DNA of 51,948 bases from positions 1-51,948 of the forward strand of contig MDYQ01000198.1 of NCBI GenBank assembly GCA_003024175.1, read 5' to 3'. Shown here piece after piece: positions 22,329-32,311 of the stretch (position 1 is its first letter; each line of letters begins with the position of its first letter). This DNA comes from Planoprotostelium fungivorum. Its lineage: Eukaryota > Evosea > Variosea > Cavosteliida > Cavosteliaceae. A model generated the notes under the pieces. The model did not search any database, had not been told where the DNA came from, and saw only the letters and a program-made list of their open reading frames with translations. Position numbers and translations under genes: made by a program.

Positions 22329-25300
22329 TTAAGCGTATGGATCGTATTCCATGATGGAGGATGGAAGCCTGGGACTGCCTCCCATGGCTAACCTTGGTGT
22401 CTTCATCCTCGGTGTCGTCTTCCCACTGGATAGGAGGGGACTGTCCGCCGTCTCATTCTCGTTGACATCGTAAGCCATGATCTGCTGTGCCTCTCCTCCG
22501 TACTCTTCACTCTCTCCTCCGTACTCTTGAGCCTCTTCCCTCCTCTCTCCTCCGTACTCTTCGGTCTTCTCTCCTTCTCCCTCCTCTCCACTCTCCTCTT
22601 CATCGGATAGAAACTCTTCGATGGATTCGGTCACGTTGTGGAATGTGGGACGATCCTTTGGCTGTGTCTGCCAGCACATCTGGAGGAGTTTGTTGACGTG
22701 GTCCGGTACTTTCTCTGTCACTTCTAATCTTCGTCCCAGACCCACAGATGTGACCACCTGTTCATGTCAGACATCGATTTGTGTGCCAGGGTGGTACCTC
22801 AGAGTTGGTCAAGGATTGATAGGGCACTTCGCCTGCGTGAATCATCTCCCTAGGATGACGTCAGTTGTAGATCGTGTGAATCATCTCACCATACGACTAC
22901 ACCGAATGCCCAGACGTCGCTCTTGGTGCTGTACTGATGGGATCTCAACACTTCTGGTGCCTGTAACGTGTTACTTGATGTGTCATCCGTCTGATACTCA
23001 CGCTCCATCGAACTGATTCCTTGTGAGGATTCTGCACCTTGGAGGGGGAGGACATCATTTCCCTCGCCATGCCAAAGTCACACAACTTGATTTGGTACGT
23101 TCCTTTGCGATCTGATTTGATCAAGATGTTGTCACACGTTAGGTCTCCGTGGACGATCCCATTCGAATCCAAGTAGGACATTGCAGATGCGATCTGTCCC
23201 GCCCTGCATCATGTCACGTAGAGTTACGAGATGTGAATGAAGAGAAGGCCATTCAATTGGCTCACATGGACCAGATGACGTGAATCTCAAATTTAGATTT
23301 ACGAAGTGCGTGCGAGAGAGTTCCTCCCGTGACCATCTCTGAGATCATGCACAGACATCCATCTACATCTTTGTAGACACCCATGTACTGTATGATCGAT
23401 GGATGATGGAGTCGCTGCCGTACAATGAGTCGAAGATAAAATCGAAGATGAAATCCACCTGCAGCAGAGAAGCTTCGTGCATTCCTCCCTTGTTGAATCT
23501 CTTCACGGCAACTTCCGCCGTACCGTTGATGAGAGCAGAGTAGACGGTACTGCCGGTACCCACGTGAACCTTCTCGATCAACACGACGTCATCTCTATTG
23601 AAAGAAGAAGCCGAGTTGTAGAACTCGAGCTCCACGTTCATCCTGCTCTTCCTCATCAAACTCCTCTTCCTCAAGGCAACGAAGACGAGAACCTACATCC
23701 ACATCAGCCATCACATCATTAAAAACGAGATATAGATCATCACCAGAGACAAGAGAACAAAAGCTGCAGCGCAGGCGGCTACGATGGGAATTGCAATGGA
23801 GCGGTTGCTCTGGGGGACGGAAGAAGCATCCTCTGCCTTTTTGGGAAATATTCCCACGGAAAAGTTGGTGAGGTGAGAGCACGAGCACAGGATGGAGTCT
23901 CCGTCTACAACGGTGTCGCAGTCTCGGACCCACAGGCTGTTCAGCCCGGACCAGTAGACGCATTCCACTGAAATTTCGTCGGAATTCCGAATCTTCGATG
24001 GGGTCTCACCTTGTGATTCGGATGGTACCGTTGTAGATAGAAGGGGCATGCGTAAGACGATCTTCTGAGATACACCCTGGACGCTCAATTCCTTTCCATC
24101 GAGATCTAACACCTGTTGGGTGTCAGATTTATCCGTCTACAACGATTCACCTCCAAGCCGTGGATATCTGATACGAGATTTGTGGCATTGCTGATTCAAA
24201 TCATCAATTTGTGATGAAAACGAATAGAACTCACCTGGTGACAAAGAGAGAGCCAAAGTGAGAGAGAGACATCTTCTGGAATACGACGTATCCACTCTCG
24301 ATGCTCATGTCAGTGAACACCTGCTGAGGGACAGAGGCTGATGATCCCTTCCCTGCGATCGACAGGGACACACTCTGACTGGTCACGTGACCGACAGATA
24401 ACGACAGATCGGATCCGGAGTATTGTAGATCGACTTGGCCGTTATCTCTCAAGGTGTTCACCACCAACTGGAATCCATCAATTCACAGATTCGAATAGTA
24501 CTCGAGTGCAACTCACTCGATTTAATGATTGGAAGATCTGTGGGGCAGGAGTCTCTGATAAAGACTCTACGATAATTCCGACCAACTGTGGAGGTACCAC
24601 ACGATCGGAGGACAGATACTGTCCGATCGATGTCTTACATCCGTTCAGGATCAACTGTCCCTGAGGTATGATCAGGAGAGTGAGGGAGAGGAATACATCA
24701 GGTGATGTCTCACCATGTAGAGAGGAGAAGAAGAAGAGTTGAGTAGGATGGAGCAATATCCATCGATGGTCAGAGCAACAGGTGGGATTACCGTGGTCGA
24801 ATGGATACCATCTACAACGATTGTCGTGTTCCCTTCGAGAGAGTTCCTCTGGATCTGACACAAGATCTGTTCTTGGTGAGAAGGAGATGAGATGGACACA
24901 CTCACTTGAGATTGATTGACGAGAATCGAAGTGTTCAGACACATCACATCTCCATCGAGTACTCTCAACAGACTGTTGTTGTCTCCAAAGTTGTAACCGA
25001 GTAAGAAGAGATAGTGGGTTCCATTCAGTGAGTAAGAGGACAGCTGGAGGATGTCAGATCGTCATGATATCGCAGTGAGATCGTCGTGACATCTCATCGA
25101 CTCACTTGGGTGATGGTGGGTGGCATGAAGGATACGGAAGAATTGGAAGAAACTCCGTCGACTGACAATTGTAGACCGTGACGACCTGTACCGGCGGGAA
25201 ATGCGAAATAAATGACAGTGTCATTCTCCAAGATCGTCCCATTGTAGACGATACCGTCTACTACGATGCGTAAAAGGTCGGAATTTCTACCGAAATTCTT

Positions 25301-28300
25301 TCCTCGTAAGATAACCTTTGAGTATTTTAGTCGTTGTAGATGAATGCACTTCATTACCTGTCCTCCAGTAGTATTGGGAGATGAGCTCGAAACGATCTCG
25401 GGCGCGTTGTAGTTGAGGGTGCCAGCTTGTGGATTCGTTTGATTATTCACGGTCAGGCTCACTTGGTGTCCCCTTCCTGTTCCAGGAACATGGATGCACG
25501 TTACGTTCAGTACGTAATCCGTAACGCTGATGGAAGTGAGAAAGGGAATCAAATGAGAAACACTCACCTTCCCGTGACATTTCCTACCGTACACACACGA
25601 CCATCGATCTTGACGACGTTGCTCGTTGTAGATGGAGAGCAACCCACACAAGACAAGACGATGGGTGTCGATCCATCGGTATCCATGGTGACCACCTTAT
25701 CGATGAGATAAGGAGGGAGGTAGTCGTAGCTGACACTGGTGGTCGATTGTAAACCAGCAGAGATCTCCAGCTGATGATTTCTTCCACTACCGGGCAGGAT
25801 CGACACCACCATCCATCGTGCATCTACAACGAGGATCTTGACAGATGTTCCATCGAAGGTGGCAGTGGTCTGTCTGCGCTCAGTCGATGTCGTTGAGATG
25901 TCTCTCACCTGAGAGGTCACGTGACCGAAATAACCGGATACGTTGAGGGAGATGGGAAGATCTTGGATCTGTAGGAGACCATCTACGTACATCTTGGGTT
26001 CGTAGAACATGGCCACGGAGACGTAACTGGAGGTGTAGGTGATGCATTGTACGCTGGATGCCCCGGAAGAAACGGTGATCACGTCATTCATCCAAATCTT
26101 CGCGTTCGTGTCCCATCGAACACATTTGACTGTTTGTCATCAGATGAGTATGATGATGATGATGATGATGATGATGACACCTGTGTAATCGATAGGAATC
26201 TGATCGTAGGAGACATCGAACAGAAAAGTGTACTCTGTGACATTGGATGCGCTCGACAATCCAGAATTCTTGATCTGGGCATTGTACACGTCTCCGACGA
26301 TGGTCCTGTATCAAGTCAATCTCCTCCATCTACAACCTGCCACTCACAGGTTCACACGATCGGTGAAGATGGAAGGAGCTATGTTCCTGCTGATCCTCTC
26401 GATCTGAATGTAACCCGATGTCAGATTACTTCTCAGAGCGTTGGGAACTGATAGGGTGAGGCTGTGGTTGTCGTACCAATCGTATGTCATCGCGGTGATA
26501 TCGATGGTGGTGGACAGATGCCAGGGAGTAGCATCAGATGAGGTGTAGTTGAACAAGTTCAATGCGGATACAGACATGTCAATGGCTCGAGCGTCTAACG
26601 AAGGGAGAGTCTGATCATCGGCAAAGATATCGTTCACCATCTGATCGGTCATCATCATCTGATCACTGGGGTGATCAGACCCACCTTGTTGACGGACACG
26701 AGAGGATCGTAGATGTTTCTAAATGTCACGATCTCCTCTAATAATGAATCTGCCAGGGAGAGAGGTACGGGAGTGACGTCATCACCGTTCAGATAGAAGA
26801 TCGTCAGATTTCCACAAGAATTCATCAGCGAGTATCCCTGATCAAATCAGACGCTGTGAACCATCTACAACTCACAAAGAGGTAGTCGGTATCGAATTGG
26901 TCCGTCAGCAGTAAGAGATTGCAAAATTGTGAATCTGAACTGAACTGAACTGGATATCTCAGATTATTCGAAGACTGTCCGGCCAGATAAAATTGAGCGA
27001 AGGAATTGTCTGTCACGTTGACTCCTCCATCTACCAGACACAACACCTGTTCGTCTCAATCTCGGTGTCTGATCGATGCGACTGCACCTGCGAATGCGAT
27101 TGGATCAGGCTGATGTTTCTGCAGGTGACGTTCTGGATGTCAACTGACATATCTGACATGACTGTTCCCATATTGTCTCCGTTCAACAATACGATCTGTC
27201 CCATGGGGTTATCGTGGCTGTACAGCTGTATATGGTTAATGAAATGAATGAAGTCAAATGAAATGGATTGAAATGTACCGATAAGATGGTGGGAGGTAAG
27301 AAGTACATGTAAGAGGCTTGAGGAGTACCGTTGACTACCACGTTGATGACGTTGATGCCTGATCCTGCGCCGACATCGAAGTAGAGAGATGTGTCGTTCT
27401 TGTATACAACGACATTATGGTAGACGTTGGGGTCACGTGACAGACCGATCGAAATATCGGAGCCCTTCCTTCCAAAGTTATTTCCGGTGATGTCCACCTG
27501 CGCTCGTTAGCCCGTTGTAGATGGACGAACGTCACTCACTCTACCTCCCCGAGTTGAGGGCCTTGATATGGTGCTCAGTATGGGTGGATTGTACGAAAAT
27601 ATTCCGGCGTTGTAGTTGGTCTGATTTCCCGCCGTGATGCTGATGATTCTACCTCCACCCGTACCCGGTACGTACTTGCATTGTGTCGTGTGAATGTATT
27701 GACTCCTTCGAGAAGGTCAGGGTGAGTCACTCATGATCCATCTCACCCCTCTTGTACGTAAGATGTGATGACACAGGGGATGCCTCCGATGGTGATGGAC
27801 ACATTGTTCGAATAAGGTCCACACAGGGCACAGTGGAGTAACACTGTGGCCACAGCATCCGTGTTACACGGTGTGGTGGCAGAGGAGAAGTAAGGGAGGG
27901 GGTAAGAGAAATTGTACACCATGTAACTCTGAAGGCGCTCAGTCGATGGCGTGGAGAGTTACGCACCCCATACAGAGTGGAGATGGTGATCACGTGACCG
28001 TATCCGATTCCCGCGGGAATGTTGAGCGTAACGTACGTCGGGGACGTCTGAGCGAAACTCGCCTTGACTCCATCGATAGTTACATTGCTCTGTAGATCGT
28101 CAGCACCCTCTTCAAATCACCATGGTTACCGAAGCAGGGTCGACGACAGCAAAGAGACCCGTCAGATTGACCACTGTGGGTATCTTACTGACGATCGTGT
28201 ACGTACGTAAGACGTACACGCTGCTGACGTTGGTGTGGAAGGGAGTCCACATGGAAGTCAAATTCGAATTCGTCGCCCCGACGAGCAGCTGATTTTACGT

Positions 28301-29242
28301 CAAAGAATGAGACGAGATGATCTACACTCACAGATTTAGAGGCGATGGGACCATTGATGAAGCAATAGAGAGAGCTGGTGTTCGAATTAAAGGTAGAGCC
28401 TACACATTCTCTTCCGTTCAACGTGATCACTCCACCAGCCAGGTTGTCTCCGTACACAGTGATGGCTCCTGTCGACGGTGAATATTCTGTGAAGAGTTGA
28501 AGGACATCACCTCCGGCAAAGGTGAACTGAGCGTCGATGGAAGTGATGTAGGGAGAGATGAATAAATCACAATTGACGACAAAGTTGAATATCGGGCCAC
28601 ACTTGCCTTGCTGCTGTGACCACCCTGCATTCGTGTCAACTTTCATCATGAAATGGATTGAAATCTATTCATCTCATGTCCTCGGGCTCACCGAGATAGA
28701 TGAACTGTGGATCCATGATGGAGATGGAGCTGTTGCACTGATATACGATGAAAGCCGTGTCAGGCGAAGAACACTTGGAAGAGTCGGTATTAATGAGGGG
28801 AGAAGAACCTGTAGAGGGTGAGAGGTCTCGCGGTGGCTCCGCACCATTGCTTTGGATGAGAGTGGGAACGAGACCTTTATATGATGTTTGAGGAAGAATA
28901 AATAAAATCGTACCAGTGCTGAGTATCAAAAAAGGACTCGAGTACCCTTTCACGACTCTGTGACCTGTGTCAATCGACTGTTGAAGGAGATTTACGCACC
29001 CGCATGGATTATAGTAGTATCGGCTGTTGTTAGAATCAGATGCATTCCATACTGAACTGTCGCAGCTCAGTCGTGTATCTACAGATACTCGATACTCACT
29101 TGTAGGGTCCTCGATTCGTGAGATAATCGGTGTGCAAGATCGGTCCGTCCGGTTGATTCAACTCACACGAAGGTATAGATGCAGAGGTTAGTACAATAAA
29201 ATAGATACAAAGAAAGAGAGCTGACGTTGGGGTGCGCATCAT
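22329..29242 (-). CDS. TIG-repeat receptor kinase with GPS autoproteolysis motif
   Basis: The N-terminal signal peptide reads MRTPTSALFLCIYFIVLTSA. The long ectodomain (about 29150-24150) contains several IPT/TIG-like repeats, recognisable from G-x-NFG turns and PPTI boundaries: ITGNNFGRKGSDISIG, VILRGKNFGRNSDLLRIVVD, TVYGDNLAGGVITLNGREC, FLPPTIL, FMPPTITQ. Before the membrane is a GPS motif: CVYWSGLNSLWVRDC, then CSCSHLTNFSVG with the HL/T cleavage triplet. One helix (SIAIPIVAACAAAFVLLSLV) and a basic stop-transfer (RKRSLMRKSR) follow. The kinase is tyrosine-kinase-like: VGTGSTVYSA, AVKRF, HGDLTCDNIL, CDFGMARE, SDVWAFGVVVWEM, CWQTQPKDRPTF. HRD is changed to HGD. The tail has acidic EYGGE repeats and a Pro/Ser/Thr-rich end, MEYDPYA. 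About 30 exons are present. It is probably a self-cleaving adhesion or allorecognition receptor; the ligand is unknown. Confidence 0.85.
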
Positions 29243-30967: not shown

Positions 30968-31873
30968 TCAAAGTGAGGCGGGGGCCAAATCATGTATAGG
31001 AGAGGTGCTGCGGGATCCGTGGCAAGAAAGAGCTCTCGGTGATCCAAGGGTTGGCGATCTCGGTGTCATGATGGGCATCCTCGTGGATCCTTTCTTCATG
31101 AATTTGTGAGCCAAAATTCCTTGGATATCGATCCTCTTCGCGGCGTTGAATTCCAACATCTTGGATAACAGGTCGGCGGCCTCAGGAGGGACTTTGATGT
31201 GATCGGGGAAGCTCGGTGCCTCCAGTGAGAAGTTATCCTCTTTGTAACTGAAGGGAAAGACGCCAAAGAGGAGGGCGAAAATGGTGACTCCCAGAGCCCA
31301 CACGTCGGCTCGCTTGGGGCAGTATGGACCCGTTCCAGCGAGGAGTTCTGGTGCGGCATACTCTTTCGATCCGGCGTAGTCGGTGCTGAATTCCTTGTCT
31401 AAAACGCAGAGTCCAAAGTCAATGAAGCTGGCCTTCCTCTCTACATTGTCCCAGATGACGTTCTCGAGCTTGATGTCTTTATGGGCGACTCCCTTCTCGT
31501 GGATCTTTCCGAGTGCCGTAGCCAGTTGAGAGAGGATGACACGAACGACTCTTTCGTGCATTGGTCTAAATTCAGATTCTGCCATGGAATGATACAGATC
31601 GTGTCCGGGGGCAAAGTCAAAGACCAGCCAGTGGTGATTGCTGGTTTCAAAGTGGGTGCGGAAAGGGACGACACCTTCCACGTTCTTCAGTCTCTGCCCC
31701 GCCAAGATCTCGGTGGCGATGCGAACAGCATTCTGCTTCTTGTTGATCTTCTTGATGGCGATGAGACGACCTCCTGGTTCCTGGACGCCAGAAACAACTT
31801 GGCCGTAGTCACCTTCCGACAGGTACTGCAGGTTGGTGTAAGAGCAATCAGGACCGACGATGGTGTTGCTCAT
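30968..31873 (-). CDS. Intronless protein kinase (Ser/Thr type)
   Basis: A single 301-residue frame starts MSNTIVGPDCSYTNLQYLSE. Kinase landmarks: G-loop SEGDYGQVV, in which Ser replaces the first Gly; the VAIK-type lysine in IAIKKI; catalytic loop VAHKDIKLENVI, with HKD in place of HRD; FIDFG; an activation segment ending YAAPEL; and DVWALGVTIFALLFGVFPF. The fold therefore looks complete and the DIKxxN core suggests Ser/Thr specificity. The Lys in HKD keeps a positive charge, so activity is possible. The tail contains SP/TP motifs (MTPRSPTLGSPRA). Lack of introns in an intron-dense region suggests a retrocopy or a horizontally acquired gene; the sequence cannot decide. Its promoter region is shared head-to-head with the monooxygenase gene. 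Confidence 0.85.
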   Translation of the reverse strand: MSNTIVGPDCSYTNLQYLSEGDYGQVVSGVQEPGGRLIAIKKINKKQNAVRIATEILAGQRLKNVEGVVPFRTHFETSNHHWLVFDFAPGHDLYHSMAESEFRPMHERVVRVILSQLATALGKIHEKGVAHKDIKLENVIWDNVERKASFIDFGLCVLDKEFSTDYAGSKEYAAPELLAGTGPYCPKRADVWALGVTIFALLFGVFPFSYKEDNFSLEAPSFPDHIKVPPEAADLLSKMLEFNAAKRIDIQGILAHKFMKKGSTRMPIMTPRSPTLGSPRALSCHGSRSTSPIHDLAPASL

Positions 31874-32311
31874 GTTCTTTGTTGGGTTTGCAAGAGAATG
31901 TTAGATTGGTGGGCCATCCAGTTCGCCCACGTCCTTTCCATTTGATCCCTTTTTCTCACCTTCAGGTGGCCCTTCTCTCAAGAAATTCTATGTCATCCGG
32001 CTTAGGAGCTACTAAAGTGAACGAGGGCCCAATCGTAGGGACACACCACGGCTCCCCCGTACACATTTAGCTTCGAACTCACTGGTCGCCATGGGATCGT
32101 GTTTATGAAACATATGGAAACATTTCATGAAGATGATTCTAAGTGCGCTTCCCAGCGCATCCAGCGTAAGAATTGAGCTCCTCTTCCTGGAGAGCGAAGG
32201 ATTAGATTCAAAGTCCCACAAAGTCCGTGAGGAGAAAAGGAATAAAAAGACGGTAGAGACAGGTTTTATTTCTCCCTGCCAGCAACGACATCAGTTCCCG
32301 ATGTCCTCATC
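31874..32311. other. Divergent intergenic region between kinase and monooxygenase genes
   Basis: About 440 bp with no convincing ORF. It must hold both promoters. A short direct repeat (CCGATGTCCTCAT) occurs at 32299-32311 and again inside the first exon at 32326-32338. No clear core promoter element is seen. Confidence 0.45.

Follow-up and report, generated by a model that had tools for sequence, protein, structure and literature searches.

Closest described systems and the receptor gene

Adhesion G-protein-coupled receptors (GPCRs), such as latrophilin, BAI, CD97 and GPR56, have a GAIN fold ahead of the membrane, a GPS motif with the residues HLT and adhesive repeats further out, followed by seven membrane helices and coupling to G proteins. 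Here we describe a gene of the amoebozoan Planoprotostelium fungivorum (class Variosea) that has a comparable extracellular arrangement but one helix and a protein kinase in place of the seven helices. The window that was analyzed is the entire contig C145 (51,948 bases), from an assembly that totals 36.9 Mb and has 471 contigs, and the gene is on the minus strand of the window, with the start codon at 29242 and the stop codon ending at 22329. We consider it quite likely that the gene encodes a single-pass receptor kinase in which a GAIN domain links a TIG-rich ectodomain to the helix, and that, together with its relatives in this genome, it forms a greatly enlarged family of GAIN receptor kinases and pseudokinases. 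This assignment is carried by the way in which the parts follow one another in a single predicted gene, by a predicted structure with a GAIN-like fold, by the occurrence of the family across the genome and by the kinase residues that are retained.

Polycystin-1 has multiple helices and differs in this from the single-pass kinase of the window. Polycystin-1-like proteins resemble the window receptor in that they carry a GAIN domain without being ordinary GPCRs (PMC13197933, in excerpt). Fusions of the types GPCR-TKL/K and GPCR-TK are described from choanoflagellates, oomycetes, amoebozoans and sponges (PMC12716839, in excerpt) and also combine a GPCR-type part with a kinase, but they keep the seven helices, whereas the window receptor has the extracellular GAIN part only. 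A relative with leucine-rich repeats (LRR), P0020, is deposited under the name of a plant-type LRR receptor-like kinase, from which it differs by the GAIN/GPS region between its LRR and its helix. The Dictyostelium names rk3 and VSK3 presumably refer to one gene. The rk3/VSK receptor kinases have a signal peptide, one helix and a TKL kinase, to which rk3 adds a TIG domain (PMC1420674), and VSK3 is needed for phagosome maturation (PMC3135261). In rk3, as in the window receptor, whose kinase may be of TKL or of TK type, TIG, one helix and kinase are found together, but the excerpted descriptions in these two papers mention no GPS or GAIN, and the comparison is one of descriptions. TIG-helix-kinase receptors and seven-helix receptor-kinase fusions are already known, and the GAIN domain is the new part. 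A preliminary description of the gene, made from the DNA letters alone, had known of no standard described family with this order of parts; in agreement with it, no description of GAIN joined to a single-pass kinase, in such numbers, was found in the literature searched, which was searched partly with other aims, and a mention in the genome paper of this amoeba is possible.

Gene model and domain order

The features of the receptor are the following (all on the minus strand):

22329..29242, whole coding span, 1804 amino acids (aa) in 33 exons (spliced models)
29180..29242, signal peptide, aa 1-21 (hydrophobic window at aa 8)
24798..28538, extracellular TIG/IPT region, about aa 150-1150, limits approximate (Pfam TIG 3.3e-23)
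23840..24800, GAIN domain, about aa 1150-1394 (AlphaFold2 model, Foldseek, VIA-align)
23852..24010, GPS motif CVYW...W..DC...CSCSHLTNFSV, aa 1352-1390 (Pfam GPS 23.2 bits, translation)
23858..23875, HLTNFS, aa 1383-1388, with the predicted L/T cleavage (sequence; mechanism from PMC13062082, in excerpt)
23678..23797, single membrane helix, aa 1409-1431, then ALRKRSLMRKSR, with a 51-nt intron inside (hydropathy 3.0 at aa 1413)
22605..23590, kinase domain, aa 1461-1713, with beta-3 Lys, HGDLTCDN and DFG (Pfam 9.5e-62; tyrosine-kinase-like solved sequences; catalytic residues)
22332..22604, acidic cytoplasmic tail with tyrosines (EEYGGE, QEYGGE, EEYGGE, EYDPYA; translation)

On the final model, the Pfam matches followed the order TIG, GPS (1e-4, aa 1353-1389) and PK_Tyr_Ser-Thr (aa 1465-1707). 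The best TIG stretch is at aa 483-543 (about 27293..27017), and the final model has three TIG stretches, where the first model, under a more permissive limit, had six. Kyte-Doolittle windows reaching 1.6 were two in number, the signal peptide and the helix at 1413, so that by hydropathy the receptor has one helix and not the seven of an adhesion GPCR. There are 38 N-glycosylation sequons before the helix and three after it. The signal peptide, TIG, GPS, single helix and kinase named in the preliminary description were all found in the gene by Pfam, hydropathy and translation, as were its strings AVKRF, DFG and SDVWAFG in the translation.

The model was derived from an automatic spliced model in which three kinase/helix junctions were corrected by hand from landmarks, and which was then merged with the deposited protein P0001 and verified as an exact GT..AG splice of the window. 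After correction the Pfam score of TIG was 81.9 bits, up from 56.5. The introns are very short, 32 of them lying within less than 7 kb (29099-22758), and they are 38-67 nt long apart from one of 105 nt, which is a reading of a zero-length exon at 28874/28875 in the exact-splice output. At aa 257/258 the exon-intron choice differs from that of P0001, and either choice is possible. P0001 itself (2035 aa, named as a Rab GTPase) is a mis-fused model that runs from a Rab gene into the receptor; it steps over the stop of the Rab frame (...QNTAPGSPK*), which is at about 29,530 on the minus strand, 5' of the receptor, skips the receptor's signal peptide and is without nine residues of the kinase N-lobe that the DNA encodes (RLHHPSIIQ). 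It is partly for these reasons that the receptor has been hidden in the databases. The C-terminus of the Rab frame has no cysteines, and the deposited Rab N-terminus has SCC.

A genome-wide family with kinase domains

When the genome was searched with the GPS profile of Pfam, at least 150 places over the curated cut-off were identified, 150 of the 176 candidates having been scored. The GPS of the window receptor and six further places that match its GPS-helix part lie outside the list, so that 150 is a lower bound. The 150 places are distributed over 85 contigs, and 59 of them are within 10 kb of another, compared with 12 expected for places at random, and therefore form tandem arrays. The preliminary description had dealt with this gene by itself: the order of parts that it gave is real, but the gene is one of at least 150 GPS-bearing loci, many of them with degenerate kinases.

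Forty loci were modelled and searched with a kinase profile. They are not a random sample, since they comprise the best 30 GPS scores (including six of the seven sites on C1 and all six on C196), the seventh C1 site, six more on C351 (making eight of the ten there) and three low scorers. They have 32 distinct GPS peptides, and the contig pairs C5/C120 and C335/C196 look duplicated, so the genes may be fewer than the loci. Five extra loci (on C34, C362 and C394, and two on C149) were chosen for a nearby kinase match. A kinase-like domain followed the GPS in 36 of the 40 forward gene models; in an earlier set of models, the same profile had matched 34 of 41 and none of 41 shuffles. After the GPS there was one strong hydrophobic window at 32 of the 40 loci, two at four and none at four, and at no locus was the number near seven. 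The four models without a helix over 1.8 (C335:1273, C196:26027, C283:19032 and C109:175681) are taken to be wrongly spliced, although this is unproven. By BLASTP, the part of the window receptor from the GPS to the tail matched 37 of the 40 loci at 1.5e-6 or better, a few of them over the GPS region only. A first tblastn of the GPS loci with the kinases of P0001 and of P0003, another receptor of the same kind in P. fungivorum, had exceeded 40 bits in 7 of 53 loci, and was replaced by the profile search of spliced models.

A protein search with the GAIN part found only P0001 and P0020, the first protein search having been dominated by kinases. The deposited P0020 has Pfam LRR, GPS and kinase matches in one protein, with HTHLTASS at the position of the catalytic Asp, and on C351 there are LRR stretches where models run into the next gene of the array. 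From outside the genome, the GAIN part of P0003 as a query found P0018 and P0019 (43 and 40 percent identical, respectively). P0018, of 1454 aa, comes from the JGI collection, where its contig has 4388 bases, and P0019 is a EukProt transcript; both have HLTNF, one helix and an HRDLAARN kinase, in the same order and in one frame. Neither derives from the P. fungivorum genome, in which their best places, on C351, are at most 74 percent identical. The predicted fold of P0019 is that of a GAIN domain. The tails of P0003, P0018 and P0019 have repeated acidic tyrosine motifs (e.g., EDIYSYSD, DDIYSFSD and EDIYSYGD) that look like docking sites for phosphotyrosine binders.

These data bear on whether a secreted TIG/GAIN protein might have been falsely joined to a neighbouring kinase gene. 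The deposited model of the locus is itself wrongly joined to the Rab gene and the splicing is predicted, both of which would allow for such an error. However, one exon (23967..23744) contains the GPS together with the beginning of the helix, the following exon (23692..23459), beyond the 51-nt intron, contains the remainder of the helix and the kinase start, and a kinase-like domain follows the GPS not only in most of the modelled loci but also in P0020 and in P0019, a transcript from another organism. We therefore consider a false join highly improbable.

The predicted GAIN fold and the determinants of self-cleavage

Taken alone, the GPS of the window receptor is borderline, its score against Pfam PF01825 (23.2 bits) being just above the cut-off of 22.5. 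The AlphaFold2 model of the region ahead of it is GAIN-like, and the ten best Foldseek matches in the PDB were all GAIN chains of adhesion GPCRs. Both subdomains, A and B, are present in the predicted structure, also by VIA-align, with a short helical part. The preliminary description would have been undermined by a region before the Cys/Trp motif without a GAIN-like fold, and structure modelling instead predicts that fold. Subunits of axonemal doublet microtubules (from sperm, Chlamydomonas and trypanosomatids) scored level with the lowest GAIN chains (VIA-align rank 12; Foldseek ranks 11-12; ranks 11-12 also in the search with the P0019 model), and from these model-based matches a GAIN-like fold may also occur inside flagella.

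The stacking place of latrophilin-1, F803, was provisionally assigned to C-x-[F/Y/W]-W with the help of the latrophilin sequence. The assignment also uses the 33-residue spacing from F803 to H836 given in PMC13062082. The determinants of cleavage described in the excerpts of that paper are H-X-S/T, an aromatic residue stacking on the histidine (in latrophilin-1 Phe, Tyr and Trp are all functional) and a Gly that precedes a conserved Cys. The window receptor has HLT, and among 45 GPS peptides of the genome 44 have HLT and one HFT. The stacking residue is Tyr in the window receptor and Phe, Tyr or Trp in 43 of the 45 relatives, the other two having His. The Gly of Gly-Cys is replaced by Asp in the window receptor and is kept in 44 of the 45, one of which has Ile for the Cys. 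The preliminary suggestion of a self-cleaving GAIN domain is therefore borne out at the level of the determinants in nearly all of the family peptides sampled. Since these are so widely kept, self-cleavage is likely in the family, and because of the Asp it is uncertain in the window receptor itself, a copy that may cleave poorly. At the DNA level, the pattern for HLTNF occurs at 171 places in the genome, compared with 57 for the reversed pattern, which fits a conserved cleavage motif, and 77 of the first 100 places listed are inside the 150 GPS places. A pattern for variants with another residue for the N was rejected as too loose (401 places, compared with 223 for the reversed control).

The Asp and the GPS score barely over the cut-off would also fit a window receptor whose GAIN domain stays uncut and serves as a stalk, passing on binding or force and nothing more, with cleavage confined to the relatives. 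HLT and the stacking Tyr are kept, however, and Tyr at this place retains cleavage in latrophilin-1 (PMC13062082, in excerpt); we regard an uncleaved stalk as possible, though doubtful.

Kinase type and predicted activity

The window kinase keeps all four of the catalytic residues that were checked (the beta-3 Lys, the catalytic Asp, the Asn and the DFG Asp) and, with its signal peptide, single helix and intracellular kinase, the protein has the make-up of a receptor kinase. Of the 60 best solved sequences shown, 59 were tyrosine kinases, including an entry labelled EGFR, a long entry labelled tyrosine-protein kinase, TYK2, a Src-Abl ancestor, LCK, ITK, BMX and ABL1, and one was MAP3K12. Catalytic loops of the TK type read HRDLAARN or similar, as in P0003, P0018 and P0019; despite its tyrosine kinase matches, the window kinase has HGDLTCDN.

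Among the modelled relatives, at the positions that could be aligned, 17 of 18 have the beta-3 Lys and 17 of 32 the DFG Asp. The catalytic Asp is retained by 3 of 34 and the Asn by 2 of 31. Two of the three relatives with the catalytic Asp (C196:42487 and C1:310224) have an identical GPS peptide, and only C109:175681 keeps all four residues, like the window receptor. One of the five further loci, C149:202326, reads HGDLCAAN and ADF. By the usual residue-based rule, most members in this biased sample are pseudokinases, and a few members of the family are likely to be active kinases.

Evidence against, proposed mechanism and significance

Several observations weigh against the assignment or against cleavage. 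The kinase is missing from four of the 40 modelled loci: C196:626 runs off the contig end with 625 bases left, the model of C283:19032 looks poor, and C351:52113 and C351:55341, which may be truncated, pass from the helix into the next gene. When the two Pfam searches were paired by coordinates, only 8 of the 150 GPS places were tied to a kinase match within 5 kb downstream, which we ascribe to the scoring of 134 of 1388 kinase candidates, to 150 of 169 matches being listed and to degenerate kinases. P0003, P0018 and P0019 have no GPS match over the Pfam cut-off, and the structure models were built on five sequences and are of middling confidence. In addition, cleaving human receptors have Gly where the window receptor has Asp before the conserved Cys, and BAI2, which has HLS, crystallized uncleaved (PMC13062082, in excerpt).

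In the mechanism that we propose for the receptor, the GAIN domain would cut itself at HL/T during secretion and the two pieces would stay together. Prey or another cell that bound the TIG part, perhaps with pulling, would then loosen or remove the large piece. What is left in the membrane, consisting of about 25 residues, the helix and the kinase, could now pair with another copy or with pseudokinase relatives and phosphorylate the tyrosine-rich tail with its putative signalling role. We infer the cleavage, kinase activity and force sensing of the window receptor from its parts, and the allorecognition or prey sensing proposed in the preliminary description are likewise candidate roles. The tethered-agonist mechanism of adhesion GPCRs is not transferable unchanged, because the seven-helix domain on which such an agonist acts is absent.

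Cleavage of polycystin-1 is a maturation step for folding or transport. By analogy, cleavage in the present family could be constitutive maturation, with activation by ordinary ligand-induced pairing as in receptor tyrosine kinases and no release of the ectodomain as a signal. Nothing in the sequence demands release, the one-helix stub left by the cut offers no seven-helix domain to a tethered agonist, and relatives with degenerate kinases still have the determinants, in keeping with a structural role. This conservation also fits a release mechanism, however, and we hold constitutive maturation to be a real possibility that falls somewhat short of an even chance.

As the setting of the proposed release mechanism, phagocytosis is plausible by analogy, because rk3 has the nearest architecture in Dictyostelium and VSK3 acts in phagosome maturation. 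Planoprotostelium fungivorum is, we assume, the same organism as Protostelium aurantium var. fungivorum. The latter is the name of a genome in PMC10445921, and Protostelium aurantium is called fungivorous in PMC11237637 (both in excerpt). The family, which is arranged in tandem arrays, varies in its ectodomains and has many kinases that are apparently dead, is a candidate repertoire for the recognition of prey or of other cells. We can go further and envisage a new class of cleavage-primed GAIN receptor kinases, in which the main recognition repertoire would be made up of self-cleaving single-pass receptors, more than 100 in number and with ectodomains of TIG, LRR or other kinds, most of them pseudokinases pairing with a few active ones, and in which contact with prey would pull off the ectodomain to start signalling. 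In this full form the idea is unlikely; if true, GAIN cleavage would serve generally as a switch outside the cell, with no need of a GPCR. In the literature consulted, GAIN cleavage has been studied in seven-helix receptors and polycystin-1, where its effect is hard to separate from that of the tethered agonist, and a large natural family of one-helix GAIN kinases would let this effect be asked about directly, in proteins without the seven-helix domain.

Other features of the window

A separate protein kinase reading frame lies near the receptor gene, at 30968-31897 on the minus strand (Pfam Pkinase 3.1e-44). When up to one mismatch is allowed, the 12-mer CCATCTACAACG (reverse complement CGTTGTAGATGG) is present at 26 places between 9237 and 47002 of the window, compared with 0.25 expected, in introns and exons and on both strands (e.g., at 24808, 25624 and 27513). 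Genome-wide there are 2351 exact copies, compared with eight for the reversed pattern, and the candidate explanations are a dispersed element, an intron-borne motif or a putative binding site.
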